From NCBI GenBank assembly GCA_018398585.1, contig JAGTTD010000010.1:1877501-1941500 (forward strand): DNA of 64,000 nucleotides. The letters run 5' to 3'. Below, piece by piece: positions 2,584-64,000 of this stretch. Origin of the DNA: Simmondsia chinensis (taxonomy: Eukaryota; Streptophyta; Magnoliopsida; Caryophyllales; Simmondsiaceae). Positions within the stretch are counted from its first letter, which is position 1. Every line of letters starts with the position of its first letter. Both the position numbers and the translations under genes were made by a program. The notes beneath the pieces were generated by a model. The model searched no databases. It had not been told where the DNA came from and saw nothing but the letters and a program-made list of their open reading frames with translations.

Positions 2584-2783
2584 CTATATAAAAGCAACAA
2601 AGCAACATACCTAGTGCCCAAGGGCTCCGGCCCAAGCAGGGTCTGGGGGAGTGGATGCACGCAGCCTTCCCCCTTCGGGGTATTACTCCTGAAGAGAGGC
2701 TGTTTCCGAGTGCCCCGAGCCTGGTGAGGACTTCCCAGGAGGTCACTGGTCCTGATACTACTCTCGCCCAAGCATGCTTAACT
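2584..2783 (-). mobile_element. 5S-rRNA-headed SINE, minus strand, degraded tail
   Basis: Reading the complement, a 5S rRNA segment (positions 2783 down to about 2726, with box A 'agcatgcttgggcgagag' and box C-like 'agtagtatcagg') is followed by the shared 3' module. That module contains 'ggaaacagcctctctt', 'cagaccctgcttgggc' and 'ggcactagg'. The TTG tail has decayed to 'gttgctttgttgctttt'. The 5' part of the 5S head is missing. No clear target-site duplication was found. Confidence 0.72.
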
Positions 2784-3524
2784 TATATCAGATCCAATAT
2801 TAACAGTTGTGTTTTGCACATAAAGCATGCCGTGATAGCCCAAGTTATTGGGCCTTAATTGGGCCAGTTGGACCATGGGCTTGTCTAGGTTTCCTTATAA
2901 ACATAGTGTCCCTTGGTCAAAATGTGAAAAATTTAGGGTTTAGGGTTTAGATCATCTGTACTTTTAGATTATCGGCACTTTCAGATCATCCATATTATTT
3001 ATCTGGACATTTCTTACTACTCCGTTAGTCAGTTTTGACGCAGATCGTGTCCAAAGTTGGGCCCTTCACTAACTCGGCTTTAATCATGATGCGCAAACTT
3101 TTTGCCTTTTTGTTTTTCCTTTTCGAAACTTTATGTACCAAGGGGACTGCTCTCTTTTTAATTATGAAAAAAAGAAACGATACCTGAATACGACTCGTTG
3201 TAATGTGATTATCAATTTTTGGACAAATTAGACCAACATATCTATTCTATTTTATTACGCTTTAAGATTTTCTTTTTTAAATAATAAAAAAAAGACTCCT
3301 TAAGATTACCCTCACTTGATAGGAAACCCCTAAGACATCAACTCGGATAAAACGAGAAGAGTGCTCTACCTTGAACACAATCCCACACAAAAATACCTGA
3401 ACTTTCATGACCCAAATTCACCAGCCAGTTAGCCAACCTACTGGCTTTCCTATAGCAGTAATTGAAAGAGACTTAAGCTAAGCTGATTCAAACCTACCAA
3501 ATTATGCTTTAAGATGTACATATG
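2784..3524. other. intergenic; short telomere-like repeat
   Basis: Positions 2935-2951 hold 'tttagggtttagggttt', two and a half plant telomere units, about 40 bp downstream of a TATA-like 'ccttataaaca'. This could be the promoter or leader region of an old LTR, but nothing else supports that. No gene is recognisable. Confidence 0.35.
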
Positions 3525-3538
3525 TACACATTCAACAT

Positions 3539-3799
3539 AAACAACAACAACAACAACAGATGTAGTGCCTCAAAGGCTCCCGCCTAAGCGGGGTCTAGTG
3601 GGGTGGATGTACGCAACCTTACCCCTTCAAGGTAACCCCTCCCAAAGGATGTTTCCGAAGACCCCAGTCTTATAGGGTTTACAACACGAGAACTTCCAAG
3701 GAGTTCACCCATCCTGGTACTACTCTCGCCCAAGCACACTTAACTTCGGAGTTCTAATGGAATCTGATGCCTTAGTGCTCAGTAAATAAACCCTATATA
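3539..3799 (-). mobile_element. full-length 5S-rRNA-headed SINE, minus strand
   Basis: The plus strand reads tail to head: (aac)n at 3541-3558, the shared 3' module, then a nearly complete 5S rRNA sequence in reverse complement (about 3675-3790), with 'cttaacttcggagttctaat' and 'actactctcgcccaagc'. Perfect 14-bp target-site duplications (tacacattcaacat) lie at 3525-3538 and 3800-3813. Length is 261 bp. The pol III boxes A and C of the 5S gene are recognisable with a few changes. Confidence 0.88.
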
Positions 3800-4606: not shown

Positions 4607-4872
4607 ACAACGACAAACAACAATAGATCCAGTGCTTCAAGGGATCCCACCTAAGTGGAGTCCGGAGGGATGGATGTACGCAGTCTTACCCCTTCAGAAT
4701 GTAATCCTGCTAAGAGGCTGTTTCCGAGAACTCCCAACCTTATAAGGTTGGCAACACGGGGACTTCCCCAGGAGGTCACCCATCCTCGTACTACTTTCGC
4801 CCAAGCACATTTAACTTCGGAGTTCTAATGGGATTCGGTGTATTAATGCTTGGTAAATGAACCCTAATACAT
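4607..4872 (-). mobile_element. full-length 5S-rRNA-headed SINE, minus strand
   Basis: The tail is 'aacgacaaacaacaat' on the plus strand. The shared module follows, then a 5S head in reverse complement (about 4750-4862) with 'aacttcggagttctaatggg' and 'gaggtcacccatcctcgtac'. A 10-bp duplication, tttagactca, flanks it at 4597-4606 and 4873-4882. Length is 266 bp. It lies 0.8 kb from the similar copy at 3539 but has its own target-site duplication, so the two are independent insertions. Confidence 0.85.
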
Positions 4873-12014: not shown

Positions 12015-12252
12015 TAGATGCTCGAGTTGGAGTAGGGTAGTCTAGCTTATTAGTGCTAGGCCTTGACATCGTCCTGGCACACTTAGGGTCTCATGTTCTA
12101 TGCTGCGGACCAGTTTCTCAGGTTTGGGGGTCCTCGGAAATAGCCTCTCTTCAGGGTAGCCTCCTGAAGGGGGAAGACTACGTACATCTACCCCTAGAAC
12201 TTGCTTTTGCGGGAGCCCGTGCAGACACTGGATTTGTTGTTGTTGTTGTTGT
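12015..12252 (+). mobile_element. 5'-truncated RTE LINE, 3' UTR only
   Basis: A perfect 16-bp duplication (agtttatatcatacga) lies at 11999-12014 and 12253-12268. The insert begins inside the LINE 3' UTR: 'ggagtagggtagtc' and 'attagtgctaggcc' match the complement of the LINE at 34073-34800 near 34545-34580. It continues through the shared 3' module to (gtt)n. Confidence 0.85.
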
Positions 12253-16100: not shown

Positions 16101-18129
16101 CTGGTTTGTATGTCCTGGCAGGCTTGTAACATGTTTAAATTGTTGCATATAGGATTCAGCCATTATTGCAATCAATAAACCTCCTGGGTTGCCAGTTCAG
16201 GTAAATGATTGAGGACAATTCTTTGTGATTGTTAAGGGTCTATTTGTTATCGTTTTCCATTTGTGGTTTTTGATTTTTTTCGGGGAAACGAAAAACTGAG
16301 GATTGTTTAGGGGAAAAAAAAGAAGAATTTTTCAATTTTTTGGGGAAATGTTTCTAGGAAAACTGGAAAACTAGAGAATTTGAAAAGTTGTTTAAAAGCA
16401 TGGTTTTCCAATTGGAGAAGTTGGAAAATAGATTTGCGGTTTTCACTATTGTTTTGGAAATTTGGAAAACAGTTAAATGATTTTCCCTGTTTTCTAGAAT
16501 TTTCTATCTCCATGTTTTCCATGGATTTCTTTTTACTCTCTCTTATTCTCCGCTTTATTCTCTTTCTTTTTCTTCACTATACCCTTCTCTTTGACTCGTT
16601 CTCTTGAAAATTGAAAAACTGATATTACTTGAACGCATTTTCCAATTTTCCAATAGCAAAAACAACTAATGATCTTCTATTTCTAAACATGTGTGCCAAA
16701 TTGAAAGTGGAAAAGGGAAATTGAAAATGAAAAGAAAAACTAGAGAGGGAAAATGAAAATTATTTTATGTTTCTAAATAAGGCCTAGATTATGGAAAATA
16801 TTTTTCTTATTTTTGGTTTTTGTTTTCAGTTATACCCAAATTAGGCAAAAATTGAAAACAAAAAACAAAAAAATCATAAAAGCGTTAACATATTCTAGTT
16901 TTTAGCTTTTCAAAAACCAGATCCGCAAACAAAATGCCATGCCAAACAGGCCCTAAATTTCTGTTGAATGTTCTGTGAGGTAGGTATTTTCACTCTTAGC
17001 ATTTTTCTACCCTTTCATTCTGAGTGTCACTGTTGCTAGGGTGGCATTGGCGTCAAGAAGAGTTTAGACGAGCTGGCTTCCATGTATTTACGACATGATT
17101 GTTCAGAACCTCCTCGGTTGGTGAGTTTTGCTGGAATTTTCTGCGATTTTATTGAGTCTACTTATGAAAAGAGTATGGCGAAAGCACATGTTAACTAGCA
17201 CCTTGTACCCCGGCATAAAACAAATACAGCACGAATGAAAGTGCTAGAGGTATATATGAGCCAACCAAGCCCCAACTCGTGAGCATATTTGTGCTAATAA
17301 GTTGTATTAATATAATTTTGTAGTTCATTACTTTTAGCTTTGAAGAAATATTGTTGAGTTTAGTACTTGGGTAGCAAGTTGTGCTACATCACCTTGTTTC
17401 TAAAGTCAACAGACTTTTTCTTTCTTTTTTTTTTTGGGTAAGTTAAGGTTCACAGACTGGATAGAGATAGTAGCGGCGTCTTGGTGATGGGAAGAACTCA
17501 AACAAGTACTGCACTGCTGCATTCCATCTTCCGTGAGAAGACCTCCGGAGCATCAAATAATGTGAGTCATCCTAACTTTAGGATTTGAAAATCACCCTTT
17601 GATTAAGTTAATTTCATGGGAATTTATTACTTAGGTATCATGAGGTTTGAGCATTTATCACCTGGGTATCTTGACATTCATCATATCTCTATCTCTATCC
17701 TTATTTTTATCTTCGTCTTATCTGTTGATCTGTGCCTGATGTGGCGTGCTTTGAGTCTGTTGTTTTGCTCGCCGTGTGTTTTGCCCTACTCGTGCATTTG
17801 ATGCTTCTCCTGTTGCCAGGTCTTTAGCTCAGTGCTGCAGACCAGCTTTTCAGGCTGGGGGTCCTCGGAAACAGCCTCCCTTCAGGGTAGCCCCCCGAAG
17901 GGGGAAGGCTGCGTACATTTACCCCCCCCCCCCCGACCCTACTTATGTGGGAGCCCTTTGAGGCACTGGGTTTGTTGTTGTTGTTGTTGTTTGTATCTTG
18001 GCATTCATCATATGAAATAAGGTGCCAAGTTTGAAATTTTATCACCTACGTACCATACATTGAATTTTGGTAATTTTTTATCATAATCTAGTCAAGTTTG
18101 AAAACGTTGATATGGTATATAATTATGAT

Positions 18130-31192: not shown

Positions 31193-31620
31193 CAACAACA
31201 ACAACAACAACAAACTCAGTGCCTCCAAGGGCTCCCGCATAAGCAGGGTCTGGGGGGTAGATGTACGCAACCATCCCCCTTCAGGGGGCTACCCTGAAGA
31301 GAGACTGTTTCCGAAGACCCCCAACCTGAGAAGTTGGTCCGCAGCAATGAGCAAAAGACCTGGCAGCAGGATAGCATCAAAGCATAAGTAAGGCAAAACA
31401 CATGGTGAACAAAACAACGAACTCAAAGCAAGCTACATCAGGCACAAATTAACAAATAAGATAAAGATAAAGATAAGGATAAGAATAGAGATAAATGATA
31501 GAGATAGAGATAGAGATAGAGATAAAGATAAGTAGGTCAGTAGCGAGTCAGCTCATGAGAGCCAGTACACAGCCTGCGTGCGCCAAAAGGGTGTCAAGAT
31601 CTAGTACTAGTAAGCAGGAC
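31193..31620 (-). mobile_element. 5'-truncated RTE LINE 3' end, minus strand
   Basis: The plus strand reads (aac)n, the shared module, then the LINE 3' UTR including a gataga-rich tract (31455-31535) and 'ctcatgagagccagtaca'. Perfect 11-bp duplications, taatattattt, lie at 31182-31192 and 31621-31631. Length is 428 bp. Confidence 0.88.
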
Positions 31621-34059: not shown

Positions 34060-34072
34060 CCTCAATTATATA

Positions 34073-34800
34073 ACAACAATAACAACAAACCCAGTGTCTC
34101 CAGGGGCTCCCGCATAAGCAGGGTCTGGGGTGTATATGTACGCAGCATTCCCCTTTCAGAGGGCTACCCTAAAAGGAGGCTATTTTCAAGGACCCCCAAC
34201 CTGAAAAGTTGGTCCGCAACAATGAGCCAAAGACCTAGCTATAGGAGAAGCAACAAATGCATCAGAATGGCAACCAAAAAAAAATGCAAGTTAAAACAAC
34301 AAACTCAAAGTATGCCACAACAGGCACAGAACACAGATATAATGAAGATAGAGATACGGATAAAGATAAAGGATAGAGATAGAGATAGAAGAGATAGAGA
34401 AAGAGAATGAGATAGGGATAGATATAGAGGATAGATAAAGGGGTAGAGATTATGTTCAAAAAAAAAAAGATAAAGGGGTAGAGATAGAGAAAAGTAGGTA
34501 AGTAGCAAGTAACAGCTCATGATATTCAGAACACAGCCTACATGCGCCAAGAGGACCTAGCATTATTAAGCTGGATGACCCTACTCTTACCGGATCATCT
34601 AATACCCCCCTATGCTAGCCCTCCATTGGGCCCTATCTAAGGCCATCTCCTCCCGAAGGTTTAGGTAGGTGAGGTATTGTCGGATCGTCTCAAGCGATCT
34701 CTTATTTGGTTTGCCTCTGCCTCTTCTGCCTAATGTAGTGAGGGGCTGTTCGCATCTCCTGATTGGAGTGTTGTCCGGTCTCCTTCTGACATGTCCGAAT
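34073..34800 (-). mobile_element. 5'-truncated RTE LINE, minus strand, with the end of its ORF
   Basis: Perfect 13-bp duplications, cctcaattatata, lie at 34060-34072 and 34801-34813, which defines a 728-bp insertion. On the minus strand it begins inside the reverse-transcriptase ORF (34799-34599). A 3' UTR with a gataga/tatctc-rich tract and an internal A-run (34458-34468) follows, then the same 3' module and (ttg)n tail as the 5S-headed SINEs. This copy ties the TTG-tailed family to an RTE-clade LINE. Confidence 0.9.
34599..34799 (-). pseudogene. C-terminal end of an RTE-type LINE reverse-transcriptase ORF
   Basis: The 66 codons plus stop begin FGHVRRRPDNTPIRRCEQ, include RRGRGKPNKRSLETIRQYL and end DRAQWRASIGGY. 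GHVxRRP, RGRGRPxxxW/SxETIRxDL and DRAQWR are typical of the C-terminus of plant RTE-clade ORFs. The fragment has no internal stop but lacks the catalytic domains through 5' truncation at insertion. The copy at 55752 overlaps its last residues (RAQWRASIG) and then differs by a homopolymer length change, so the true C-terminus is uncertain. Confidence 0.82.
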
Positions 34801-35075: not shown

Positions 35076-38000
35076 ATGGGAAGCCAAGAAGCAAAGAGGA
35101 CAATCACAGGATGGGCTGCAAAGGACTCCTCTGGTGTTCTCTCTCCGTACTCTTACTCCCTCAGGTTCGGGTTTTTTTGATCAAGTTTTTTTTTTAACAG
35201 ATTGTTCGTTTACGAGAAAGTAATATAGAAATTTGAAATTTATAAAAAGCGGGTATTTACGCTCTTGTTTCATTACCAGAAAATTCGTAATATATGAAAA
35301 GTTTAAGAAGTAAGTTACTTAGCTGCCCAGGTTCTAATTTATGTGAATTATAATCATACATAAATATTTACTTGCTAAAAGTTGATACAAGAATTGAATT
35401 TCTTAGATATATATCACTTTCTATATGAATTTTAATCTTGTGCTAACCAAAAAAAAAGTAACATTTTTGGTGTCCTAACATCTCCCGTCTAAGCATGATC
35501 TGGGGATAGATGTACACAGCTTTTTTCCTTCAGGGTGCTATCTTAAAGAGAGATTGTTTCCAAAAATCACCAACGTAAAGGGTGCAACACAAAAACTTTC
35601 TTGGAGATCACTCGTCTCGGTAAAGGGCATCTTTTTTTTTCATGATTTTAGGTTGTTTTTGGCCAAAAACAGTACTCTTAAATTAAATTAGAAATTATTT
35701 TTTCATTTTTAAGTAGAAAGTAAAGCAAAAGTAATAACAAAAACTAAAATTTTTCAGATAAAAATATCTCTTTTAAAACATATTTGTGTAAAATGCTTAT
35801 ACAGAAAGTGTTTACAATAAAAAATAGTCATTTCATAATTTAGCCAAAGATGTTCAATATTATCTAAAGTCGTGATGTCTGTTAAATTTGCACGCCACAA
35901 AGTTGGTGCATATGAGGTTTTTATATAAATTTAAGTAGAGTTTTATTCTAAAACTAATTGGTAATAGGCGGAGCAACCTACTAGACTTATAGATTGATCT
36001 CTTTACTCTGATAACTTTAATATATAATTTTGTTACAGTATATTCTTATTAAACTGACATGCGAAGTAATAAAACGGGAACAGGAAAACAGGGGAAGAGG
36101 ATGTGTACATAAAGGTGATGTGCTGTGGAGTATGTCACACTGATCTTCATCAAACCAAGAATCATCTCGGCATGTCCAATTACCCTATGGTTCCTGGGTA
36201 TTTTTTCTCTCTTTTTTTTTAATTATATTAAAGATAATAATTCATGAATTTTATTAACTTGTTTTATCTTTTTATTTTAATTTACTTGATGTTAAAAAAT
36301 TATCTGTCCCAAAAGCTTAAGCTTGTGGGTAAAGGTGTAAGACTGGATTTACTCTTACCTAGTACTTAAATTATGTTAATACTGAAAGTAAGTGTTGGGA
36401 TTTCAACTCGTGACCTTTTAGTCAACAATGATACGTTGTTGAGAAATTATGTGTCCCAAAAGTTTAAGCTGATAATTGAAAATTCAAGAGTGGTTTTATG
36501 CTCTAATATGTGCGTGGATCGATATTGCAGAGGGCTCACCTCTTACCTTGTGTTTAAATTATATTAATACTGAAAGTAGGTGTGGGGATTCGAACTCGTG
36601 AACTCTCAATCAACACGGCTCTGATATTATGTTAAGAAATTACTTGTTTCAAAAGCTTAAACTGATGGTTGAAAGTCCACAACTGGTTTATACACTACCA
36701 GTAGATTATAATATTAATCATCTAATCAAATATAACCCAAGCCGGGCTCCGTTTGTTTAGGAGAAAATTAGATTCTAGACTTGATTTTTCTCTTTTGTTG
36801 TTTGATGTGCGTTTTTAAACGGAAAATATTTTTTGAGAGAAGAGGTTTTTTTTTCAAAAGGTGGAAAATGACTTCAATTGTAAAATGTGAAAAATCATCA
36901 ATGCAAACCTTCAAAGTATATTTATCAGTCGGAATTTGGATCAGATTAAATTTATGTTGGTTATAAAATAATTTATTGAATAATTAGTAGAAAATATTTT
37001 TAAAAATAAACAAAAAAAAACATCATAATATGAAAATAAATATTTTGTTGAAACAAATAAAAAAACTTTTTCACATGTGGGGTAAGTTGGAAAGACTAGG
37101 GTGCGTTTTTCCTCGTTGAAAACTCTTCGTTTTCTAGAAGATTATTTTATTGAGGTCCGAGTTTTTATTATCTAAGTATTTTTATATTTTAATATATATA
37201 ATAAAGTATTTTATATTTTTAAAATTTTATCATTTAGATATTTTATATAAGAATTTAGTAAAATTTTATCAAAATTTGATTAATTTTTATCATAAAATAT
37301 TAATATGATACATGATAATATATAAGTACCATATCCGTTGGTGAAAATTCAGCAAATTATAAAAAAAAAAGGTATATTGAATTATAACAGAAGATATTTA
37401 TACGCTGGCAAAGTAGTGTGTCATAATAGCTTTATACGGTAAAAAATCATAGCTTTATAATAAAGGATATTTATATATTGTTCTAATCATATTCTATCTT
37501 AGCACTTTTTAATAAAAATCTATTAAATTTTGGTAAAATATATCTAATTGTATATTCTTAACATCCGAGGTGCTTGATCGATAGAAGTTTAAAACCTTGA
37601 GATATCTCATTATATATATTAAATCAAGCTATTAGGTGATAAATGCACAAATCTTAAGATATCTGAGTGATAAATTCGCTTATGACTAAAAATATAATTT
37701 TTAATTTTTTATGACTAAGAGTTTATTTATCAGATACTAATGTAATCGGATCTCATTAGAACTCCGAAGTTAAACATGCTTGGGCGAAAGTAGTACTAGG
37801 ATGGATAACCTCCTAGAAAGTCATTGTGTTGTTAATATTATAAAGTTAGAGGTTCTCAAAAATAGTCTTTTAGCAGGGTTATACCCTAAAGGGATAAGGC
37901 TGTGTATATTCACCTTCTTCAAATCCCGTTTATATAAAAGCTTTTGAAAAATTGGGTCTGCCGTTGTCGTGGTCGTCGTCGTCGTCGGTAGTGGTGGAAA

Positions 38001-41000
38001 ACATAGTGATTGAAGAGCAATAATAGACTAGTTTAACCAATCGTCAATTGACAAATATTTTTTTTTTTTAATGACTAAGGTTACTTGATTGCAAAATCTG
38101 AACATTTAATTCTTTTTATTTAAGAAATTATATTCGTCCTTCTTTAGTCAGATGCTGTCTATTACTATTACTGATATTATATTTAGGAAATTTTATGATT
38201 TTCGTTTTAAAATACTAACATAATACATTATCTTGCTTATATATAAATATTTTGTCATAAATTAACGACTTTTTCCTAATATATTAGATTTTATTAAAAG
38301 CATTGATATAATGCATATGTATTATCATTGTCATATATTATATCAATAATTTTATGATAAAAATTGATCAAATTGTACAAAAGTTGACCAAGTTCTTGCA
38401 AAACATAAAGTATCTAAGCGGTAGTTTGTCTTTTTATATAATTTTTTATGGGTTTTATTTCGGAAAATTTAGGTTTTAAAGAGAATTTACTTATTTATTT
38501 ATTATTTCAATTTCATTAAAATTAAAAACAAAAGTAAAAAGGGGCGTCGTGTTATTTCTAACACAAAAATATAAATGTGAAAACAAATTTTTAAAATTTT
38601 GTAACTATTATTTATTACAAGTTATATCAGCAATAATAATAGATTCAGTGCCTTAAGAGCTCCTGCATAAGTGAGGTCTGAGAGGGGTGGATGTACGTAG
38701 CCTTACCCCTTTATGGTATAACCTTGTTGAGAGGCTATTTTTTAGGACCCCGAATCTTATAAGGTTGATAACACGAGGGCTTTCGAGGAGGTCACCTATT
38801 TTGGTATTACTCTTGTCCAAGCGCGCTTAACTTCAGAGTTTTATTATTATTTTAAAATAAAAATAAAAATTATTTCTAATTTTTTATTTAAAAAAAATCA
38901 AAAAAATAGAAATGATGTTAGTGGGTGGAAATGTTGGGAGAAAGCGACCCTGTTGTGGTTGGAATTTGCAAAATGTCTTCTTACAATGATCCTGACACTT
39001 GACTGTAATATGTCGTATAGCTATTGTGAAAGGTAAAAATTATTATTGACGAGTAATAAGGTAATTTATAAATTATAAGAGTTATAAAATTATTTTAAAA
39101 ATTATATTTTTTACTCTAGTAATAAAAATTTAGCCCTGTCAATAACATAACCTAATTTATAATGTATATATTAGTATCATGAGATTTGATGTATTTATTT
39201 TTTTCACGACCTTGTGAAATTAGTTTAAAAGTTTAATATATTTAATAAAATGGCTCAAATGTTAGTATATAGGGGTATAAAATTGATCATTCTTTTTTAT
39301 TAATAGTGTCATAAGATTATGATTCATAAATTGAATGGGGGGAAGCTTTACCAACAAATAACAGTAAGTTTTATACCCTTTTATATCGTTATTTGAACTA
39401 TTTTATCAGTCATGTGTAACTTTTGGGCTAAAAAATTATTTCACGAATTTTGTGGACTGAAATATTAATATACCAAACTTTAAGGTATTAATATGTATAG
39501 TACCCTTTATAAAATTTTATTATGAATTACACAGTCGATTTGACAATAACGTTTTTCGCTGACGTTAACTCCACCCTAGTTTCTATTCTATAATTTGATT
39601 GACCTAATAAGGTTATAGTTAAATAATCGTGTATTCTAATATTTAAAGGAATGGTTCATTTACCAGGCACTAATGCAATCGGATCTCATTAGAACTCCGA
39701 AATTAAACGTGTTTGGGCGAGAGTGGTACCATAATGGGTGACATCCTGGGAAATCCTCGTATTGCCAACCCTATAAGGTTAGGGGTTCTCGGAAACAGCC
39801 TCTCGACAGGGTTATACCTTGAAGAGATAAGGCTGCGTACATCCACCCCTCAGACTTCGCCGAGGCGGGAGCCCTTGAGGCATTGGGTCTGTTATTGTTG
39901 TTGTTGTTGTCTAATACTTAAAGAAAGAAATGTTAATTGCATATTAATTTCACTTACCCAAAACTTACAAAATCTAATTGATCTGAAATCTTAGATAAAA
40001 TCAAAGTGACCTAACTTGGCTTGAATTTGACCTGAAATTTGAAACGGCATAGTTCTATTTATCCTACCCTACTCGCGTGGACTCCGTGCTCCAAATGACT
40101 CAACTTGATGAACCCAAAACGTGGCCAGACTTGAACCTAACATTAACCCATACAACTTAGACTTTTAATCCTTTAGGCCAAACCAAGCTAACTCGAAACT
40201 CATAATGACTCAATCGAACCTAAAGGTAGTCGAAACCTGGCCAAATCCAACACAACTTAGAACTCGAAATATCTCAACCCAACCCGAGATCACTTAAACC
40301 TTAAAATAACTAAATTGATCAATTGATCTAAATTTAAGATGTATTGAACTTAAAATGACCTAACTTGAATTAGATCCGACACAAGCTTTCCCGAATAGTA
40401 AAATGGCCCAACTTAATCAATCATAATTTTGATTAATTTAATCATTCACATTGAAATTTCAATTCTATTTTATTTATAATTTAAGGAGTCCAAAACTACA
40501 ACTACTACTTATATTATATAAAAATAAAATAAAATATTCAAATGCTACCAAGGATAAGACACTTATCCTTTCACACTTTTTTTTTTCTGTGCATACATGG
40601 ATAACATATGTTTCTACTTTTTTATTTAAAAAATATTTTTATAAAAATTTGTTTCAAGACCGGGTTTGACTGTGGCAAAACCCAGCCCAATTCGAGGTTT
40701 GACCCGAGTCAGACCCACCCGGGTTTAACAGTAGCAAAACCCTGCCCAGTTGGAGGTTTGACCCGAGTCAAATCAGTGGCTCGATTCGACCAGTCCAGCA
40801 AATGATATTTGTCATTGGTCATATCGGGTTAGGAAAATTCCCCCCCCTAGACCCAACTCGGGTCGACCTGTTATATGAATGGACTAACTCAGTTCAATTT
40901 GTAGGTACCTCTGTTGGTCAAGTTCACCTATAATTTATATTTTGGACTTGTATTTGTACGTTCCTATTTAGATATACTTACCACTAATATAATAAAATAT

Positions 41001-44000
41001 ACATTTTCTTAATACTATTCATATAATATAGTATTATAACAATATTTAAATTTTTCGCATTTAAAATATAAATGGTAATTGGAATAATCAACTAATATCC
41101 GCACATAAATTAAATATTTATACTCTATATTTTGTTAATTTTGTCATTTGAACGCTCAAATTATTAATCATATTCTTCGGTTATCGTGTGTTATGCTTCT
41201 ACTACTACTATTGTGACAAACATTCTTCTTTACTTATATAAGTCATTGAAATTTAATTTCACCAAATTTTCGTATACAGCCAAATGATACGCATACATAT
41301 TGAATGTCGGTTAATTCCCGTACAGTATTTTACTAACGATGCGTTTTGGTGATGATAGGCATGAAGTGGTAGGGGAGGTGGTGGAGGTGGGATCGGGAGT
41401 GAACAAGCTCAAGAAAGGAGACATAGTAGGAGTCGGTGTTATCGTCGGGTGCTGCGAGAAATGTAGCCCTTGTAGAACCGAAGAAGAACAATATTGCAAC
41501 AAGAAGATTTGGAGTTACAATGACGTCTACACCGACGGTAACCCTACCCAGGGTGGCTTCGCTCCCTTCATGATCGTTCATAACAAGTAATTCCTGTTCT
41601 CTCTTTCTGATTATTTTCTTGCTTTATCGAAAAAACTGTAAAGAAAATGGAGAAATTCAGACTTAGGTATCCTAAGGTCTAATTTTTATGACATAGATAT
41701 CTTGATGTTTTAATATACACAATGTGGTATATATCTTTTTGTTCGAAAATTTTTATCTTTTAGATGCTCTAAAGTTTTCAACTTTTAAGAAATCAACCAT
41801 CATTCTACTAAAAATCGATAGATTTTAATTAAAAAAATATTAAAGTAAATTATGAATCCCATAATCTATGAACATTTTCGTTTAGAATTTGGTAATTTTT
41901 TTTTTTGTTAAAAAGTGCTACATAACATATGCTTTTGATAATATATAAGTAATTTATTTAAAATACCACGAACTTTTTAGTACTTCGTTGAATTTTTGCT
42001 AAAAGTATTGACATATTTTATATATATTACTGTGATCATATATTATATTAGTATTTATGTATAAAATTGTTTAAATTTTAATAGAAACTCATCGAATTAA
42101 AATAGAAAATACCTAAGTAATAAAGACTCAAAACTCAGCATATCTTAGTCATATTATTGCTTTAAAAATAAAATGTTTTATCCGATAATAATGCATCTAA
42201 ATCTCAAGCCTCTAAATAATAATTTTCTAAAAATATACATGTATAGCACGTGTAAAGGGCCATGTATTATGTATAGGAATTTTTTAACATGTACCCACCA
42301 TATTTTAATATTTAATTGATTAATAAAAAATTTATTATTATTATTAATTATATCTGGCCAATTAATATAAAAATATAGTACAATTAATACATATTAACGT
42401 AAGACCGTATGTATACTATATTTTGCTTGAAAAGCACTTAAATCCACGTGTCATGCTCACAGTAATCACGCAAATCAAAAGAAATCATATTTTTCTTATT
42501 TTTGGTAATAATGTGGGGTTGGTACCTGTCGGCCACGTAATACACGCATGGGCAACATTAAAGCAAAAGCAACATTTTCAGTAACCCAAAGACTCTCGTC
42601 TAAGCAGAGTATTGGGGGTAGATATACGGAGCCTTTATGGGAGGCTATTTTTAAGAACCCCCAACTTGAGGGTTGTAATACGAGGACTTCCCATGAGGTC
42701 ACCAATCTTGATACTATTCTCGCCCAAGCATGTTTAACGTTGGATGTCTAATAGGATCATGTGCTTGCGTGTTGGTACATGCATGGGTAACATTATGAGA
42801 GAATAAGGGTCTGTTTGGGATTGATTATTTTAAAAAAATAAGTGCTTTTTTTTCTTAAAAAAATAGTTTTCTAGAATCTGATGGGTGTTTGGTAAATATA
42901 AAAAAAGCACTTTTTATTAAAAGCAGAATTTTTTTTTGCTTATAAACATAAGCAGAAATTTGATACTTCTAATTATAAGTAGAAGCAGAATCAAAAATTT
43001 AAAATTTTTAGGACAAATAAACCCCTACTTAAACATTAAAATTACATCATACCATATCCTCTTTTAAAATCCTAACATTCTACCCAACCAATTTGGTCCT
43101 TTTCGGTAATTTGACCAAAAAAAATATTTTTCTTAAACACTGGCCAAATGTTAATAATAATAAAATAAATGCTTCTGACTGATTGAGCCAAACACAAACT
43201 ACTTTTTCAAAACATCACTTTTCACATAAGTGCTTTTACAGAAAATACTTTTGAAATAGGCAGTTTTTTCACAGCAATTCCAAACAGGCCCTAAGACAAT
43301 CAATTGTTATTTTCATAACAAAAATTATTATTAACAGAGTAATTAAGTGAGTCACAAAATTATTTTGAAAGCTGTGATTTTGCTTCAGTAATAATAATTT
43401 TATCCTGGTAATAATAAGGCCAGTCCGGACATTTTTTAGCTGCAAGCAAAAATTTCAATGGGGCCCTTCATATAGAATAAATTATAAAAATTTTGATTAT
43501 AAAATTTTGTAATATTAACAATTAATACTTTAAAATAATAATCCAAAATTTTGAGGACCCCAAACGGTTGCTTGGATCGCTTGAAGTTTATATCTGACTT
43601 TGGTAATAACGGTACCCAAAATATATGGGTGTGAATAGGCGTGCCTTATTTTGACCTCTAAGTTGAGTTATTCAACTTAACAAGTGGAGCCTGAATTTGA
43701 TGAAGTTCGAGCTTATAAGCATGAGAGTTTAGACGAGTCTATATTGACATAATTTACTAGATTAAATATGCTTAATCGAGTCAAGTTTGAACTTAAATAA
43801 AGTGAGCTTAGCGAGCTTTCCGAACTGTGTTCAAGCTCAATTGAACCAAGTTGAGCTCGTGTTTGAAGTTTTAAGCTCGGAGCTTCAAACCAAATTGAAT
43901 GTTGACAAGTCGAGATGCTGTTGGCTCAGCTCATATGCACCCCGGATTATATATTTTCAATTTTATAAATTAATATTGAAAAAAAATTATAAATTAATAA

Positions 44001-45935
44001 TTTTATAATATATACCTATCAGAATTAATTTTTTCAATTTTTTAAATTAATATTGAAAAATTTATAAATTAATACAACAACAACAAACCCAGTGCCTCCA
44101 AGAGCTCCCGCATAAGCAGGGTCTGGGGGGGTTGTACGTAGCATTTCCCCTTCAGGGGGCTACCATGTTCGAATGACGACTCGATCTTCAGGTTGGGGTT
44201 CCGCGGAAACAACCTCTCTTCTACCCGGAAGGGGGAAGGCTGCGTACATCCACCCCCCAGACCCCGCTCGTGTGAGAGCCTCTGTAGCACTGGGACTGTT
44301 GTTGTTTGTTTACCTGTTAGATAAACTGTTCAGTTAATTATTTTCTTTCTGAATTATTCTATATAATAAATTAGTATTAAATAATTTCATATTTTATATA
44401 CTGAGTGTAGAAAATATATGTATTCTTATATATATTTATATAGCATCTTTAAGCTAATTGGGTGTAGCGTAATACTTTCATATTTTAAATAAAACGAATA
44501 ATTTTTTTTTTTCACGACTTGACTAAATAAATCCTTAACACTTTCGTAATGTTTTATTTCAGATTTGTAGTCAAAATCCCAGATGGTATGGACCCGGAAC
44601 AAGCGGCACCACTACTATGTGCGGGGGTAACGGTTTACAGCCCGTTAAAGCACTTCGGGTTGAACAAAAGTGGCCTAAGGGGAGGCATACTGGGATTAGG
44701 TGGAGTGGGTCATATGGGTGTCAAAATAGCGAAAGCGATGGGCCATCACGTAACAGTAATAAGCTCATCCGATAAGAAACGGGAAGAGGCACTGGTCGAC
44801 TTGGGTGCAGACCAGTACCTGGTGAGCTCAGACTCGGCTAAGATGCAGGAGTTGGCTGACTCCATGGACTATATCATTGACACAGTCCCGGTTTTTCACC
44901 CTCTTGAGCCGTACCTCTCGCTTTTGAAGCTCAATGGCAAGCTCGTCTTGATGGGTGTGATCAACACTCCTCTCCAATTTGTCAGCCCTATGGTCATGCT
45001 TGGTGAGTTACGCTTTATATATATAATTCTGTTTGTTATTTTTTCTGTTTCAAACTATTTTGTTATGACCACCTACGAACATTGGAACTCTAAATCAATC
45101 CTTTAGTCTATGCATTTTGTTATTACAACAAGACTCTATACATGAACTTGACACGAAAGGTAATGAATTGTTAATGTCGTAAGAGTATAATAGATCCAGC
45201 AAAATGCATAAGAGTGTAAAATATATTTCGTTAAAAATTGATTAGGATGTCAAAAAGATGTTTGAGGAGAGCGCTATGCAAGTAAGGATGTAAATAAACC
45301 AAACGTTTGGTGAATTGCTCGGGTTCTAAATCAAATAGAGCTATTTTGAGTACGTTTTTGGCGCTCGATACATTATCGAGTGTAGCTCAAGTAGGCGTGA
45401 TAAGCATAAAAAACCTAATTCAAGTAAGGAGATGCTCAACTTGTTTATGCTAGCAAACAGTTCGAAAAGGACTCTTTAAATGGCTAATTAGTGGCTCAAT
45501 AATGGTTTGATAATGAATCAATAGTAACTCAATAACCCGACTCTGTTGCGAGCTAAACTCGATGCCACACTCAATTTCATCGAACCGGGTTCAAACAAAG
45601 CTCGATAACGTCTAAGATTGATGCCACCTATATCAAAGTTTTCAGCTATTACGTAAAGACCCATAAATAATTCTATACACTAAATTCTAAACGATATCTA
45701 ACGTCCATTTGGTTGGCGAACAGGACGGAAGTCGATAACAGGGAGCTTCATAGGGAGCATGAAAGAGACAGAGGAAATGTTAGCATTTTGCAAGGAAAAA
45801 GGCGTCACTTCTCAAATCGAGGTCGTCAAGATGGACTACGTCAACCAGGCCTTAGAGCGCCTCGAGAAGAACGATGTCCGATACCGTTTCGTCGTTGACG
45901 TTGCAGGTAGCAAGCTCGACGAAGCCCAACACTGA
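35076..45935 (+). CDS. CAD: cinnamyl alcohol dehydrogenase (5 exons)
   Basis: Exons: 35076-35164, 36084-36197, 41359-41586, 44563-45002, 45724-45935. Introns are GT-AG and phases fit, giving 360 residues, the usual CAD length. It is a zinc medium-chain dehydrogenase that reduces cinnamaldehydes to monolignols with NADPH in the cytosol, the last step before lignin polymerisation. Catalytic zinc ligands Cys47, His69 and Cys163 and structural zinc ligands Cys100, 103, 106 and 114 are present. So are GLGGVG (188-193), Ser212 for NADP, and the pocket residues Thr49, Gln53, Leu58, Met60, Trp119, Phe299 and Ile300, at the positions known from Arabidopsis CAD5. Val95 replaces the Cys95 I recall there. 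The start [20 protein letters not shown] is the standard CAD start. A CT-rich leader lies just upstream. Intron 2 is 5161 bp and holds three 5S-headed SINEs. The frame is intact, so this is a bona fide CAD rather than a mannitol-dehydrogenase-like paralogue. Confidence 0.96.
35461..35625 (-). mobile_element. degraded 5S-headed SINE, intron 1 of CAD
   Basis: Family blocks in reverse order are 'tcccgtctaagcatgatctg', 'agatgtacacagc' and 'gagagattgtttcc'. A short 5S remnant, 'ggagatcactcgtctcgg', follows. Tail and most of the head are lost. Confidence 0.6.
35878..36050 (-). mobile_element. degraded TRIM-like LTR, intron 1 of CAD
   Basis: 'aaagttggtgcatatgag', 'aactaattggtaataggcgg', 'cctactagacttatagattg' and 'atctctttactctga' follow the family order in the minus direction. 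No target duplication is visible. The copy ends about 35 bp before exon 2. Confidence 0.5.
36298..36720. repeat. partly tandem copy of a dispersed repeat with a tRNA-like box, intron 2 of CAD
   Basis: The unit ('cccaaaagcttaagctgatg', 'tactctaatatgtg', 'gggctcacctcttaccttgt', 'ggggattcgaactcgtgaa', 'ggctctgatattatgttaag') occurs about two and a half times with a period near 180 bp. The complement of the fourth block, gagttcgaatcc, fits a pol III B box, and 'tatcagagcc' lies where an A box or primer-binding-like site would be. The class is undecided. Confidence 0.5.
37719..37988 (+). mobile_element. 5S-rRNA-headed SINE, intron 2 of CAD
   Basis: The 5S head runs from 'tactaatgtaatcggatctc' through 'gaactccgaagttaaacatg', 'cttgggcgaaagtagtacta' and 'ggatggataacctcctag'. 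The shared module then ends in a tail mutated to repeated gtc/gtcg. No clear target duplication was found. Confidence 0.82.
38629..38840 (-). mobile_element. 5S-rRNA-headed SINE, minus strand, head partly lost, intron 2 of CAD
   Basis: The tail is 'caataataat'. The module words are 'gagctcctgcataagtgagg' and 'gatgtacgtagccttacccc'. The 5S remnant in reverse complement, 'tattactcttgtccaagcgc', ends at 'aacttcagagtt'. The first 50 nt or so of the 5S head are missing. Confidence 0.78.
39652..39909 (+). mobile_element. full-length 5S-rRNA-headed SINE, intron 2 of CAD
   Basis: It starts 'tggttcatttaccaggcact'. The 5S head continues to 'gggtgacatcctgggaaatc' and the shared module to 'gcattgggtctg' and (ttg)n. 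Duplications of 17 bp with two mismatches (39635-39651, 39910-39926) flank it. Length is 258 bp. This is the most legible head-to-tail copy on the plus strand. Confidence 0.88.
39970..40430. other. degenerate repeat stretch in intron 2 of CAD
   Basis: It is made of words such as 'gacctaacttg', 'aacccaacccgag' and 'ctcgaaact', like 26200-26960. The rest of the intron to 41358 is AT-rich, with a small 'gtttgacccgagtcag' direct repeat (about 40690 and 40757). Confidence 0.4.
42561..42780 (-). mobile_element. 5S-rRNA-headed SINE, minus strand, intron 3 of CAD
   Basis: The 15-bp duplications gcatgggcaacatta (42546-42560) and gcatgggtaacatta (42781-42795) differ at one base. The 5S part in reverse complement shows 'actattctcgcccaagcatg' and 'gaggtcaccaatcttg'. 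The module has an internal deletion, and the tail is decayed to 'aaagcaaaagcaac'. Length is 220 bp. Confidence 0.83.
42807..43291. mobile_element. Tourist-like MITE, intron 3 of CAD
   Basis: The ends gggtctgtttgggattg and caattccaaacaggccc are inverted repeats with the 3-bp duplication taa at 42804-42806 and 43292-43294. The 485-bp interior contains 'aagcagaa' and 'gtgctttt' words and no gene. Confidence 0.75.
43416..43602. mobile_element. hAT-like MITE, intron 3 of CAD
   Basis: 'ggccagtccggac', 'aatggggcccttcatat', 'aattttgaggacccc' and 'ggttgcttggatcgcttg' follow the order of the family at 4915-5117. Confidence 0.45.
43627..43945. repeat. gagctcga-type repeat, intron 3 of CAD
   Basis: It starts 'gggtgtgaataggcg' and ends 'cagctcatatgcacccc'. 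The interior words 'gttgagctcgtgtttg' and 'gagcttagcgagct' are as in the hAT-like elements. A related remnant lies in intron 4 (about 45276-45640). Target duplications were not confirmed. Confidence 0.45.
44072..44312. mobile_element. two head-to-head copies of the TTG-tailed 3' module, intron 3 of CAD
   Basis: The left half (about 44072-44168) is a minus copy: (aac)n, 'cccagtgcctcca', 'gcataagcagggtctggggg'. The right half (about 44185-44312) is a plus copy: 'gcggaaacaacctctc', 'gaagggggaaggctgcgtac', 'gagcctctgtagcactggg', gttgttg. Neither half has a 5S head. The arrangement forms an imperfect inverted repeat with arms of about 100 nt. Confidence 0.8.
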
Positions 45936-54325: not shown

Positions 54326-54569
54326 CACTAAAGAGGGTAACAACATGCCGTCACCATATCTCATTAGAACTTCGAAGTTAAGCGTGCTTGGGCGAGAGCA
54401 GTACTAGGATGGATTACCTTCTGGGAAGTCCTCACACTTAGGTTGGAGGCACTCGGAAACAGTTTCTCTTCATGGGTACTACCCTAAAGAGGGAAGGCTG
54501 CGTACATCCAGCCCTCCCGACCCTGCTTAGGCGGGAGCCCTTGGGGCACTGAATATGTTATTTTTTGCT
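54326..54569 (+). mobile_element. full-length 5S-rRNA-headed SINE with well-kept pol III boxes
   Basis: Perfect 21-bp duplications lie at 54305-54325 and 54570-54590. The 244-bp insert carries a 5S head with box A (agttaagcgtgcttgggcga, from 54376) and box C (gcagtactaggatggattac, about 54398-54417). The head passes at 'cctcacacttaggttggagg' into the shared module, and the insert ends in a short tail 'atgttattttttgc'. Of the nine copies this has the best internal promoter and the longest duplication, so it may be among the younger. Confidence 0.92.
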
Positions 54570-55751: not shown

Positions 55752-56168
55752 GATCTACTAGGGCCCAATGGAGGGCTAGCATAGGGGTATTAGATGATCC
55801 GGTTAGAGTAGAGTAATCTTCGTCTTGACCTTATCTTTAGCTATACTTTTTCTATCCCTATCCCATTCTCGTTCTCTTTCTTTATCTCTTTTACCTCTAC
55901 CTCTTTTATCCCTATCCTTTTTTTTTTGTTTTTTTGTTTTTTTTTTTTTTTTTTGCTGCTTGCTTGCCATTCTCATGCATTTTTTATGCTTCTCCTGTGC
56001 CAAGTCTTTGGCTGATGAATGCATACCAACTATTTAGGCTGGGGGTCCTCAGAAACAGCCTCCCTTCAGGGTATCCCCCTGAAGGGGGGAGGCTGCGTAC
56101 ATCTACCTTCCCCAGACCCTGCTTTTGGCGGGAGCCCTTGGAGGCACTGGATTTGTTGTTGTTATTGT
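55752..56168 (+). mobile_element. 5'-truncated RTE LINE, last codons plus 3' UTR
   Basis: It begins 'ctagggcccaatggagggct', encoding RAQWRASIG as in the ORF end at 34599-34799. It continues through a ctatccc/tctctt tract, T-runs, 'atgcttctcctgtgccaagt' and the shared module to 'ttgttgttattg'. It confirms independently that the LINE ORF and the TTG-tailed module belong to one transcript. No clear target duplication was found. Confidence 0.85.
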
Positions 56169-61208: not shown

Positions 61209-62236
61209 TTAAGGATTGAAGTGGGGAAACTGCTGGTGTATGAAAGCCCAGTCTTCCCAAGTCTCTTCTGCTACGTTCTTCCACTCGATCAGCACTTGTG
61301 CGATCTTCTTCTTGTCCCTTGTCACGGTTCGATGTTGGAGCACCTCTTGAGGCATGACTTCCGGGTCCCCGTTTGAGTCACATTGTGGGAGTTCATTACT
61401 AATTTGAGCCCGTTGCCCAATCTTCTTCTTGAGTCTGGACACATGAAAGACCGGATGAATTTGGGCCCCTTCTGGAAGGCCCAACTTATAAGCAACTGAT
61501 CCGATCTTGGCTATGACTGGGTATGGCCCATAGTAGCGAGCTGCCAGCTTTAGGTTCCTCCTTAGGGCCAAAGAAGTTTGACGGTATGGCTGAAGCTTGA
61601 GGTAGACCAAGTCACCTACCTCAAACGTGCTTTCCGTCCTTTTCAAATCTGCCATCTGTTTGTAACGGTGCTGTGCTGCCTTCAAATTTTCTTTGAGGAC
61701 GTTGATCATGATGCCTCGTTCTGTGACGAAGTCCTCTACATCAGGAGAAGTTGAGTGGCAGGGCACATCCCAAGCCAAGAGGCGTGGTTCATACCCGTAT
61801 AAGGCCTTGAACGGTGAAGTCTTTAAGGATGAGTGATAATTGGTATTGTACCAAAATTCTGCAAGAGGCATCCATTGGGCCCATAGCTTGGGCTTGAGGA
61901 GGACCATAGTATGGAGGTAATTCTCTAGGCACTGGTTGACTCTCTCGGTCTGCCCATCAGTTTGTGGGTGGTACGAGCTGCTCATAAGCAAATTCACTCC
62001 AGCAAGACGTATTAGTTCCTTCCAGAATAGACTCAAGAAGGAAGAGTCCCTGTCCGAAACTATGTCCTTTGGTAAGCCATGTAGACGGTAAATGTGGTCC
62101 AAGAAGAGCTGGGCCACACGTGCTGCTGTATAAGGATGCGCCAACGTCAAAAAATGGGCGTATTTGGTGAAACGATCCACCACAACCAAGATCACGTCCT
62201 TCCTTTGGGACCTAGGGAGGCCCTCTTCTTGATAGA
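61209..62236 (-). pseudogene. integrase fragment with chromodomain-like C-terminus, Ty3/gypsy
   Basis: The open frame from the deletion junction starts EGLPRSQRKDVILVVVDRFT, then HGLPKDIVSDRDSSF (second catalytic Asp) and SYHPQTDGQTERVN (catalytic Glu). It continues through LAEFWYNTNYHSS, YYGPYPVIAKIGSVAYKLGL and HPVFHVSRLKK to a chromodomain-like end (VLIEWKNVAEETWED). The family's first catalytic Asp, in the MDFI-type motif just before EGLP, is removed by the deletion, as is the zinc-binding N-terminus. It is in a different frame from gag, and the first ATG (62195) is internal. Not functional as an integrase. Confidence 0.9.
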
Positions 62237-63544
62237 ACCCCTCAAACGCATTGTGTTATGAGTAATGCGTCCAGAGAGAGCGTTGAGGGAGATCTCCATC
62301 ACACTGGTTTCTTCCTCCTGAGCCTCTTCTTCTTCCTGTATTTCCTCCTCTTGCTCTTCTTCCACTTCCTCTTGTCCCTCCATACTTTGGAGCTGCTTTG
62401 ACTTACATACGTGTCCAGGAAAATAACGCTCCTGACACTTATAACACTGGCCGGGTTCGCGCCTTGGGGCGCTGGAGCCTGAGGAGGACGCTGGGCCAGA
62501 CCGTGCCCCCTGGAACCTTGACACGGACCCTGGGCCTGAGAAAGACACATGCGACCCTGGGCGCGCACTGGACTGGGGCTTGACATGGGATCCAGGCCTA
62601 GCGACACCCGATCCGGTCCCTTTGAAGCCACGGATCTCAGCGATAGCCAAATCTTGAAGTTTGGCTTGTTCAAATGCCAAACTTAGGTCCTGTGGGTGTG
62701 CTGCTTTGACTGAGGCTCTGAGTACAGGCTTGAGGCCGCTTATGAAGCTAGAAACGAAGTAATCTTCTGTCAAGGCTGGGTGATAAATCAGCATCCAACT
62801 CTTGAGTTCTTCAAAACGCATGATATAGTCCTCCACAGTATTGTTTTGGACGATTTTGCTGAATTCCTCCACTATGTCCTGAAGGGACCGATCCCCAAAT
62901 CTCTTGCAAAGCTCATCCACAAAGAACTGCCATGTGATCATGGGATTTTTGAGCTCCAAGGCTTGGTACCAAGCCTCTCCTTGATCGGGCAAGTGATTGG
63001 AGGCAAACTCTACCCATTCTTCAGCTGGCACGTGGTACCAACGGAAATACTTGAGCAATCTCCTGATCCAACCCCTAGGATTTGATCCATCAAAGCGAGG
63101 AGGATCTAATTTGGCGGTATGCTGCGAGTTCCGGGTACGGTTGCTTCCATTGTTGCCACTGTTGTCAGCCTCATCACCCACACGTGAAGGAACACGTTCA
63201 TTTCTGACCTCCGGAGGTGGAGGTGGAGGAGGAATCAAGCCACTTCCTCCAATTGGAACATAATTGCCAGAGCCTCCAGCAGTAACTTGAGTTGGAGCGG
63301 CCGGCATTGCCACCTCAGGTCGTTTCTCTTGGCTAATTGTGAACCTCTACATTGTAGCGTTCAAAGTCTCCATGGTCATCCTAAGATTCTCGGTAATCTG
63401 AGCTTGAGAATCAATGGAAGTTTTTAGTTCGTTGCTTATCTGAACTTGATTTTTAGAAATTCTCTCCAATCTCTCCAATCGCCGTTCAACAGATTCAAAT
63501 CGTTGTTGAACTTGTGAATCAGCGGTTTCCTCTGATGAAGACAT
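62192..63544 (-). pseudogene. gag of the Ty3/gypsy derivative, interrupted by one stop
   Basis: The likely start is MSSSEETADSQVQQRFESVE at 63544, opening into a coiled-coil-like stretch. A single in-frame TAG at 63347-63349 cuts it, and the frame is open again to 62192. The retrotransposon gag domain (KLDPPRFDGSNPRGWI, WYHVPAEEWVEFASNHLPDQ, DYIMRFEELKSWM) is followed by a Ser/Gly/Pro-rich stretch, a zinc knuckle (CYKCQERYFPGHVC), an acidic tract and the first residues of protease (SLNALSG...MRLRGSIKKR). There it meets the deletion and runs out of frame to a stop. Confidence 0.9.
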
Positions 63545-63597
63545 TGTGGCAGCGGATCGAGTGCTTCTAGTAATGGCCAGTTTGGTGATCGTAAGAT

Positions 63598-63610
63598 GGC
63601 TCTGATACCA
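63598..63610 (-). other. primer-binding site, initiator tRNA-Met type
   Basis: The minus strand reads tggtatcagagcc, the standard plant site complementary to the 3' end of initiator tRNA-Met. It lies 3 nt from the LTR end at 63614. Confidence 0.9.
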
Positions 63611-63613
63611 CCT

Positions 63614-64000
63614 TGTTAAGAGCCTAGGTCCGTGACTTAAGTTCGAGATCAGATTGATCAATGAACTTAGGGTTTAGAAGTTTTAGAGTTAAGATGAGAA
63701 AGAGAAGGTGAAAATTAGATGAGAAGTAGAGATAGAATTAAGACGAGAAAGAGAAGTATTTCATTGATATTTGTTTGGATGATCAATACAAGTATAAGTT
63801 CCCTTATTTATGCTACTTACATCAATTCAAAAATGAGCGGGAAAGAACTAACTACAATTCAAATAATTGGCGGGAAGGGGTGGAGCGTGTTGGCTCAACC
63901 GTTTCTAGAGTGTTCTAGATTATCCTATATTCCCATGTGACTAATTAATTGAATTAATACCCAATTTATATTTATTGTTATTGGGCTTTAATCCAACTAA
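63614..64000 (-). repeat. 5' LTR of the Ty3/gypsy derivative, truncated by the window edge
   Basis: It starts (plus strand) tgttaagagcctaggtcc and aligns with the 3' LTR from 60538. It lacks 26 bp relative to that LTR where one of two ggcgggaa direct repeats and the intervening bases are gone (near 63871). About 230 bp more are expected to the right. Confidence 0.88.

Follow-up and report, generated by a model that had tools for sequence, protein, structure and literature searches.

Short interspersed nuclear elements (SINEs) that begin with a 5S rRNA sequence are known in vertebrates, moths, and Aspergillus, including zebrafish SINE3, AmnSINE1, HaSE3, PxSE4/5, and the Aspergillus families (PMC8010984; PMC3747384). 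For plants, a 2022 review describes SINEs as tRNA-derived (PMC9033089), and a 2024 paper on Cassandra, a plant retroelement with long terminal repeats (LTRs), cites SINEs in animals where it deals with the gain of promoters like 5S (PMC10853983). Here, we describe two SINE families, A and B, that carry a near-complete 5S rRNA as their head in Simmondsia chinensis. They were found in a 64,000-nt stretch of its genome (C5:1877501-1941500, hereafter the window) and then followed through the whole assembly (831 Mb, 35 contigs). We consider it very probable that both are presumptively RNA polymerase III (pol III)-transcribed, 5S-headed SINEs whose body is the 3′ end of a long interspersed nuclear element (LINE), with an RTE LINE as their putative helper. 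We judge a 5S-headed SINE in plants, probably with an RTE-type 3′ end and at very high copy number, to be new; 5S-headed SINEs as such were already known in animals and fungi. An earlier interpretation of the window, made without database searches (the sequence-only reading), knew of no established plant family combining a 5S head and a LINE-type tail, and none was found in the open-access literature among the matches listed, where a description may have been overlooked.

That reading had placed a 5S sequence joined to a common body at nine positions of the window. A window search, with the copy at 39650-39912 as the query, together with alignment, recovers the fusion at all nine; the copy at 35461 was weak in the search (E 0.046), and the other seven were also returned. 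Six of the nine exceed the gathering cut-off of RF00001 (5S_rRNA) with matches that span model positions 1-120 in full (E 2.3e-10 to 2.5e-5), whereas the truncated or decayed copies at 2584, 35461, and 38629 give no RF00001 match even at E 1. An Rfam scan of the window to E 1 returned no 5S outside the SINE heads, and a 27-mer from the 5S core (≤3 mismatches) occurs five times in the window versus 0 in 100 shuffles. Chance juxtaposition of 5S and body was tested and set aside. A tRNA head was likewise rejected, as ARAGORN detected no tRNA either in the window or in a sample of 10 loci.

Target-site duplications (TSDs) had been ascribed to all nine copies. They are clear in six: 3539, 4607, 39652, 42561, and 54326 by a scripted search, and 37719, where the script found none, by eye and with a 3′ extension. 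No clear TSD accompanies 2584, 35461, or 38629. The clustering in one CAD intron held up, with 37719, 38629, and 39652 all in intron 2 (exons 36082-36198 to about 41330-41590); introns 3 and 1 of the same gene hold 42561 and 35461, respectively. The extension of copy 37719 (37986-38079) seems to consist of ∼75 nt of extra 3′ sequence up to a T run, followed by the second TSD copy (ATGACTAAG), and could be read-through to a pol III stop in a source locus (3′ transduction).

By junction and tail, alignment divides the nine copies into two groups. In family A (n = 5: 39652, 4607, 3539, 38629, and 37719), the junction is GTTGCCAACCYTATAAGG-like and the tail is of the TTG type, with decay of that tail in 37719 and 38629; family B (n = 4: 54326, 2584, 42561, and 35461) has a different junction and a T-rich, TATGTTGCTTT-like tail. 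The (ttg)n ending given earlier for all the copies is thus correct for the five of A and wrong for the four of B. Junction A joins about nt 112 of 5S to CCAAC..., and junction B joins nt 107 to ACCC and then TCAGG...; in 54326 and 2584, which are better preserved, the B body starts GGCACTCGG. Consensus A is 252 nt long, and the body in the window copies comprises about 120-130 nt of LINE-type 3′ end. Covariation among 18 bodies gave a weak signal: of 15 pairs, 6 show a double change, and the energy is only −3.9 kcal/mol. We therefore make no case for conserved structure in the body. One body stretch, GGTAAGGCTGCGTACAT, is probably of the kind present in Au/TS-type plant SINEs; Seibt et al. in 2020 reportedly defined an Angio-SINE superfamily by a 37 bp Angio-domain that lies close to the 3′ end. 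Within B, 42561 and 35461 resemble an older branch. The copy at 42561-42775 also shares with one fetched locus (L053, 1970-2190) a third, older-looking type of 5S head with a deleted body, which is possibly a separate family.

The same fusions recur throughout the genome. Junction A occurs 4,220 times and junction B 10,069 times, with 0 for the reversed control patterns; these are counts of a 30-mer with ≤3 mismatches, complete at that limit, so that copies with >3 mismatches are missed. With the A copies of the window combined into a query, a genome search gave 6,346 first-look candidates, the best 40 of which were scored; each is 92-94% identical to the 252-nt query over nt 3-248 or more, and they are spread over many contigs (the 41st row is a 50-nt partial match). 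For family B, the best 40 of 6,738 candidates were scored. The loci that we fetched (30 A and 29 B, 59 in total) are best-scoring copies and not a random sample, and on average they differ from their consensus by 5.1% (2.8-6.7) in A and by 4.0% in B. RF00001 scores 59.7-80.1 bits at the fetched element in all 20 loci sampled, 10 from each family. The flanks of the 59 loci (160.6 kb, from loci chosen for holding a SINE) contain 10 more 5S heads, and a body follows every one: nine have it within 7-19 nt (BLAST), and the tenth, in L053, has lost part of the body and carries a TSD of its own (by eye). Head and body share their junctions genome-wide, which supports the interpretation made in the sequence-only reading. 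The same flanks hold 24 body matches that lack a 5S head and may be LINE ends or 5′-truncated SINEs.

Could each copy instead be an independent 5S/LINE template-switch chimera, with no self-copying SINE family behind it? A possible example of such a chimera does exist (L018, 733-1103; 5S plus a B-SINE, apparently one insertion). As a general account, this is very improbable, given that one junction is found in thousands of sites, that heads and bodies are family-specific, and that the fetched copies lie 4-5% from their consensus. The common junctions contradict it for A and B, although template switching may account for their beginning. The same junctions, the family consensuses, and the low divergence call for master copies.

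The ends of the insertions can be read from the TSDs. These measure 13-23 bp in 26 of the 30 A loci, a criterion reached 0 times in 100 rounds of shuffled flank pairs, and are present in 23 of the 29 B loci, compared with a shuffled mean of 0.66 and a maximum of 2 (50 rounds); across both families, their length is 13-24 bp. The 5′ TSD copies of A end at −4 to +2 of GGGTTCATTT (19/26 at −1 or 0), and the element therefore starts at or beside the first base of 5S. It counts against this picture that 4 of 30 A and 6 of 29 B loci have no TSD by the criteria used, and that the 23 B TSDs include one whose end lies 26 nt away from where the query begins. These are short elements headed by a pol III RNA gene, with TSDs of variable length at their ends and a 3′ end shared with a LINE, as is proper to SINEs.

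The 5S head was compared with the 5S genes of the host. A genome search gave 51,838 first-look candidates, of which the best 47 were scored; 46 form two clusters on C8, and the remaining one, on C29, belongs to the dimer described below. The clusters (L001-L010, L012-L017) have a repeat spacing of about 435 versus 421 nt and small sequence differences. The A and B consensuses equal the host 5S over nt 27-78, which include the A box and the intermediate element (IE), and over nt 98-107. From nt 27 to 107, they are identical to each other, and 3 of the 81 nucleotides are unlike those of the host: nt 79 and two C-box sites. With box limits placed by the usual 5S numbering, both match the host at 15/15 positions of the A box, 6/6 of the IE, and 16/18 of the C box. 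Both families diverge from 5S in the first and last parts of the head. The CCCATTAG change was rejected as a SINE marker; it is also present in sampled host 5S genes and says only that the 5S fits the host lineage.

In the C box, the SINE heads have AGG/CCTGG, the usual state in plants, where the host genes have AAG (8/9) and CTTGG (9/9 sampled). This argues that the heads do not follow the host and were probably captured before the host C box changed. Whether A and B go back to one 5S capture, with later exchange or trimming of the ends, or to two captures is, in our estimation, evenly balanced. Both consensuses read TACCAGG against TACTAAG in the host and, as noted, agree with each other throughout nt 27-107, which speaks for one capture; their 5′ ends, junctions, and tails differ, however, and an older host 5S with TACCAGG would yield both without common descent.

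The 5S sequences might also be parts of Cassandra, the plant element already known to use 5S as its promoter (PMC10853983). In favour of this, two same-strand copies in the window, at 37721 and 39654, lie 1.9 kb apart and form 194-nt direct repeats. However, these two are just 78% alike, and the copy at 39652 has its own TSD; all six Rfam 5S matches in the window are SINE heads; and the elements end in (TTG)n or a T-rich tail, with a 3′ end common to a LINE. The genomic TSDs are also far longer than the 5 bp given for the related 5S terminal-repeat retrotransposon in miniature (TRIM) Ajax (PMC10886601), and Cassandra is reported to mirror changes in the host 5S promoter (PMC10853983), whereas the SINE heads keep their own C-box state. 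We regard a Cassandra origin as next to impossible. The earlier view of the copies as SINEs and not Cassandra pieces is upheld by the long TSDs at the 5S start and the LINE-type tails; no dedicated LTR search of the fetched loci was made.

The body of the SINEs leads to a candidate partner. Without 5S, it occurs at 12 other places in the window (E below 1e-5), the match beginning only from about the 5S end onward, and at least 5 of the 12 (34072, 56036, 31193, 17852, and 12124) are tied to one LINE by their upstream sequence. Headless bodies are expected for a SINE/LINE pair and are no refutation of it. Aligned with a consensus of five window LINE 3′ ends, the A consensus agrees at 124/141 positions, starting directly after the 5S part, and the B consensus at 108/122. 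The LINE copy at 34072-34800 translates as FGHVRRR...EEMALDRAQWRASIGGY, followed by a stop, an untranslated region (UTR), and the body, and a second LINE copy with a similar end of the open reading frame (ORF; 58% over 26 residues) adjoins an A-SINE in L035. Two further structures in the window are worth recording. At 12015-12252, there is a LINE-derived miniature without 5S, which begins at the ORF stop codon, goes on, across an internal deletion, with the final ∼170 nt of the LINE, and has a 16 bp TSD; at 44074-44306, in CAD intron 3, two LINE-type 3′ ends stand in opposite orientation.

The partner LINE is probably of the RTE type. RTE LINEs of flowering plants end in (TTG)n or (TTGATG)n in 7/7 families (PMC3747384). 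Plant RTE LINEs and their SINEs are described as inserting with a T stretch ∼10 nt upstream and a TSD that starts with T and then A (Tn-TA); these LINEs end in (GTT)n and their SINEs in Tn, and such T-ended SINEs are known in legumes (PMC13295347). At our loci, T occupies 107 of 192 positions at −8 to −11 from the TSD start, versus a background of 33% (p 1e-10 with sites taken as independent; 48 TSDs), and is the first base in 32 of the 48 TSDs. This enrichment agrees in kind with the plant RTE signature.

Several points pull the other way. Controls with the T count shifted gave 59-71/192 at seven offsets but 86/192 at an offset of 200; the reported TA start is found in just 17 of 48 TSDs; and T runs of ≥4 are only modestly commoner near the site (7/26 vs 2 and 3 for A, 8/22 vs 4 and 3 for B). 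The tail of family B is T-rich and not (TTG)n. The C-terminal motif of the LINE looks like an RTE C-terminus; a protein search with the ORF end returned no match, and Pfam did not confirm RTE. An L1-type enzyme might move the SINEs in place of RTE: L1 LINEs predominate in flowering plants (PMC3747384), and the RTE identity of the partner is a putative one, read from that motif. The (TTG)n tail of A, the TTG-tailed LINE 3′ end, and the T enrichment upstream of the TSDs fit the RTE reports, and we hold an L1-type helper to be improbable.

From these observations, we infer pol III transcription, mobilisation in trans by an RTE LINE, and an origin by template switching. Through its A box, IE, and C box, which make up an internal type-1 promoter, the 5S head would recruit TFIIIA, TFIIIC, and TFIIIB, and pol III would initiate at nt 1 of 5S. 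The LINE reverse transcriptase would recognise the common 3′ end of the SINE RNA, and target-primed reverse transcription would insert the copy downstream of T-rich stretches, which would leave the 13-24 bp TSDs. A change of template by the LINE enzyme, from LINE RNA to 5S rRNA in the course of cDNA synthesis, probably gave rise to the families. The dimer in L018 (733-1103; C29) consists of a complete 5S, followed by TTTA, joined to a B-SINE. Because TATATTAAA flanks the whole (by eye) and not the B-SINE alone, this one example suggests that an inserting element can gain a 5S RNA at its 5′ end, most simply by template switching; please note that the left TATATTAAA copy ends an AT repeat and that the TSD is not a strong one.

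A bolder idea is that repeated 5S capture by an RTE LINE made a plant lineage of 5S-headed SINEs, that the C29 dimer is such a capture in the act, and that the RNA may be kept folded like 5S, perhaps moving as a TFIIIA- or RPL5-bound particle. The ends of the A head are predicted to pair as GGGUU/AACCC, where the host has GGGUGC/GCACCC, and those of the B head as GAGG/CCUC in the centroid fold, whereas the minimum-energy fold pairs GAGG differently. Compared with shuffles, the heads fold with z −1.56 and −1.57, the full A RNA with z −1.77, and the host 5S with z −2.33. Selection for a 5S fold is only an idea, because the best predicted fold of the full-length A RNA uses the AACC side in another hairpin and the shuffle scores are modest; on account of that hairpin, we think the whole proposal rather doubtful.

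Table 1. 5S-headed SINE copies, their TSDs, and LINE 3′ ends in the window.
Feature	Position	Strand	Details
Family A copy, full length	39649..39909	+	Rfam 5S 54.1 bits; 5S head about 39650-39763, then LINE-type body with (TTG)n tail as far as 39909
TSD of the 39649..39909 copy	39635-39648 / 39910-39923		TCTAATAYTTAAAG
Family A copy, TCG-decayed tail	37720..38063	+	Rfam 5S 42.1 bits; ∼75 nt extra 3′ sequence to T run
TSD-like repeat of the 37720..38063 copy	37704-37719 / 38064-38079		TTTTTTxATGACTAAG; by eye, none by script
Family A copy, 5′-truncated	38628..38850	−	76% to copy 39650-39912; alignment; no clear TSD
Family A copy, full length	3539..3793	−	Rfam 5S 61.1 bits; 19 bp TSD ATGTTGAATGTGTAYATAT, 1 mismatch
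Family A copy, full length	4607..4864	−	Rfam 5S 57.2 bits; TSD TGAGTCTAAA, end 8-9 nt upstream of GGGTTC
Family B copy, full length	54326..54569	+	Rfam 5S 52.1 bits; perfect 21 bp TSD TTAGTTGGAAGAGAGGTAAGA
Family B-like copy, body deletion, CAD intron 3	42561..42775	−	Rfam 5S 43.4 bits; 20 bp TSD, 2 mismatches
Family B copy, decayed head	2584..2830	−	Alignment; under Rfam cut-off; no clear TSD
Family B-like copy, decayed and truncated, CAD intron 1	35455..35620	−	Alignment; under Rfam cut-off; no clear TSD
LINE copy, 5′-truncated, probably RTE, likely partner	34072..34800	−	ORF end 34799-34602, 3′ UTR, family A body and TTG-type tail; TSD TATATAATTGAGG
Same LINE, 3′ end with (TTG)n	31193..31600	−	∼200-340 nt common to 34072, 17852, 56036
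Same LINE, 3′ end with (TTG)n	17687..17991	+	21 bp TSD, 1 mismatch
Same LINE, 3′ end including last ORF codons	55759..56168	+	55760-55786 encodes RAQWRASIG

Two other features of the window deserve mention. The CAD gene that harbours several of the copies encodes a joined protein with at most 83% identity to 120 proteins, among the matches listed. In a FastTree analysis of listed matches of <400 residues, it groups with Carnegiea, Saponaria, and four other proteins (support 0.93), and then with Ancistrocladus and Dionaea (0.968); all four named genera belong to Caryophyllales, and the tree thus makes it probable that the host does too. At 61209-63673 (minus strand), there are the remains of a Ty3/gypsy LTR retrotransposon, with a Ty3 capsid and SH3_Tf2-1 above the Pfam cut-off and an integrase core slightly below it.

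The rule that plant SINEs are tRNA-derived would no longer hold with more than 14,000 5S-headed junctions in a single genome, and such a number would suggest that LINE machinery has captured 5S independently in plants. There is also a practical side for annotators. 5S-headed SINEs could inflate counts of 5S genes, and the filter of AnnoSINE, which drops candidates almost identical to Rfam RNAs (PMC8825457), is relevant here. As to relatives elsewhere, three patterns gave 0 occurrences in viral contigs and one gave 0 in contigs of prokaryote genomes, neither of which represents plant genomes.

How, then, do families A and B compare with the systems already described? Like the animal and fungal 5S SINEs, they have a 5S head with an A box, IE, and C box and number in the thousands of copies (4,415 for PxSE4; PMC8010984), and several of those SINEs also have a LINE-related 3′ end. 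They differ in the fidelity of the head, which in the moth SINEs is about 63% similar to 5S (PMC8010984) and here departs from the host 5S at the 3 of 81 positions given above; in the source of the 3′ end, which is a TTG-tailed LINE here and CR1 in SINE3 (PMC3747384); and in having a plant as host. SINE3 in the strict sense (DeuSINE) is marked by a Deu domain as well as the CR1-type 3′ end. A close likeness to family A and its LINE is the tobacco TS SINE, which has a ∼100 nt 3′ end in common with a potato RTE LINE, the two sharing a terminus of TTG repeats (PMC3747384). Family A shows the corresponding (TTG)n tail and LINE-shared 3′ end, with the RTE identity of its LINE being putative and with family B being T-rich; the head of TS, however, is a tRNA (PMC9033089), and that of A and B is 5S rRNA. 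Cassandra, finally, is a TRIM that uses a 5S promoter in plants, as A and B would, but it is an LTR element, whereas A and B have long TSDs and a LINE-type 3′ end and tail. They would be its non-LTR counterpart, and TFIIIA-dependent amplification could then be compared across both routes.

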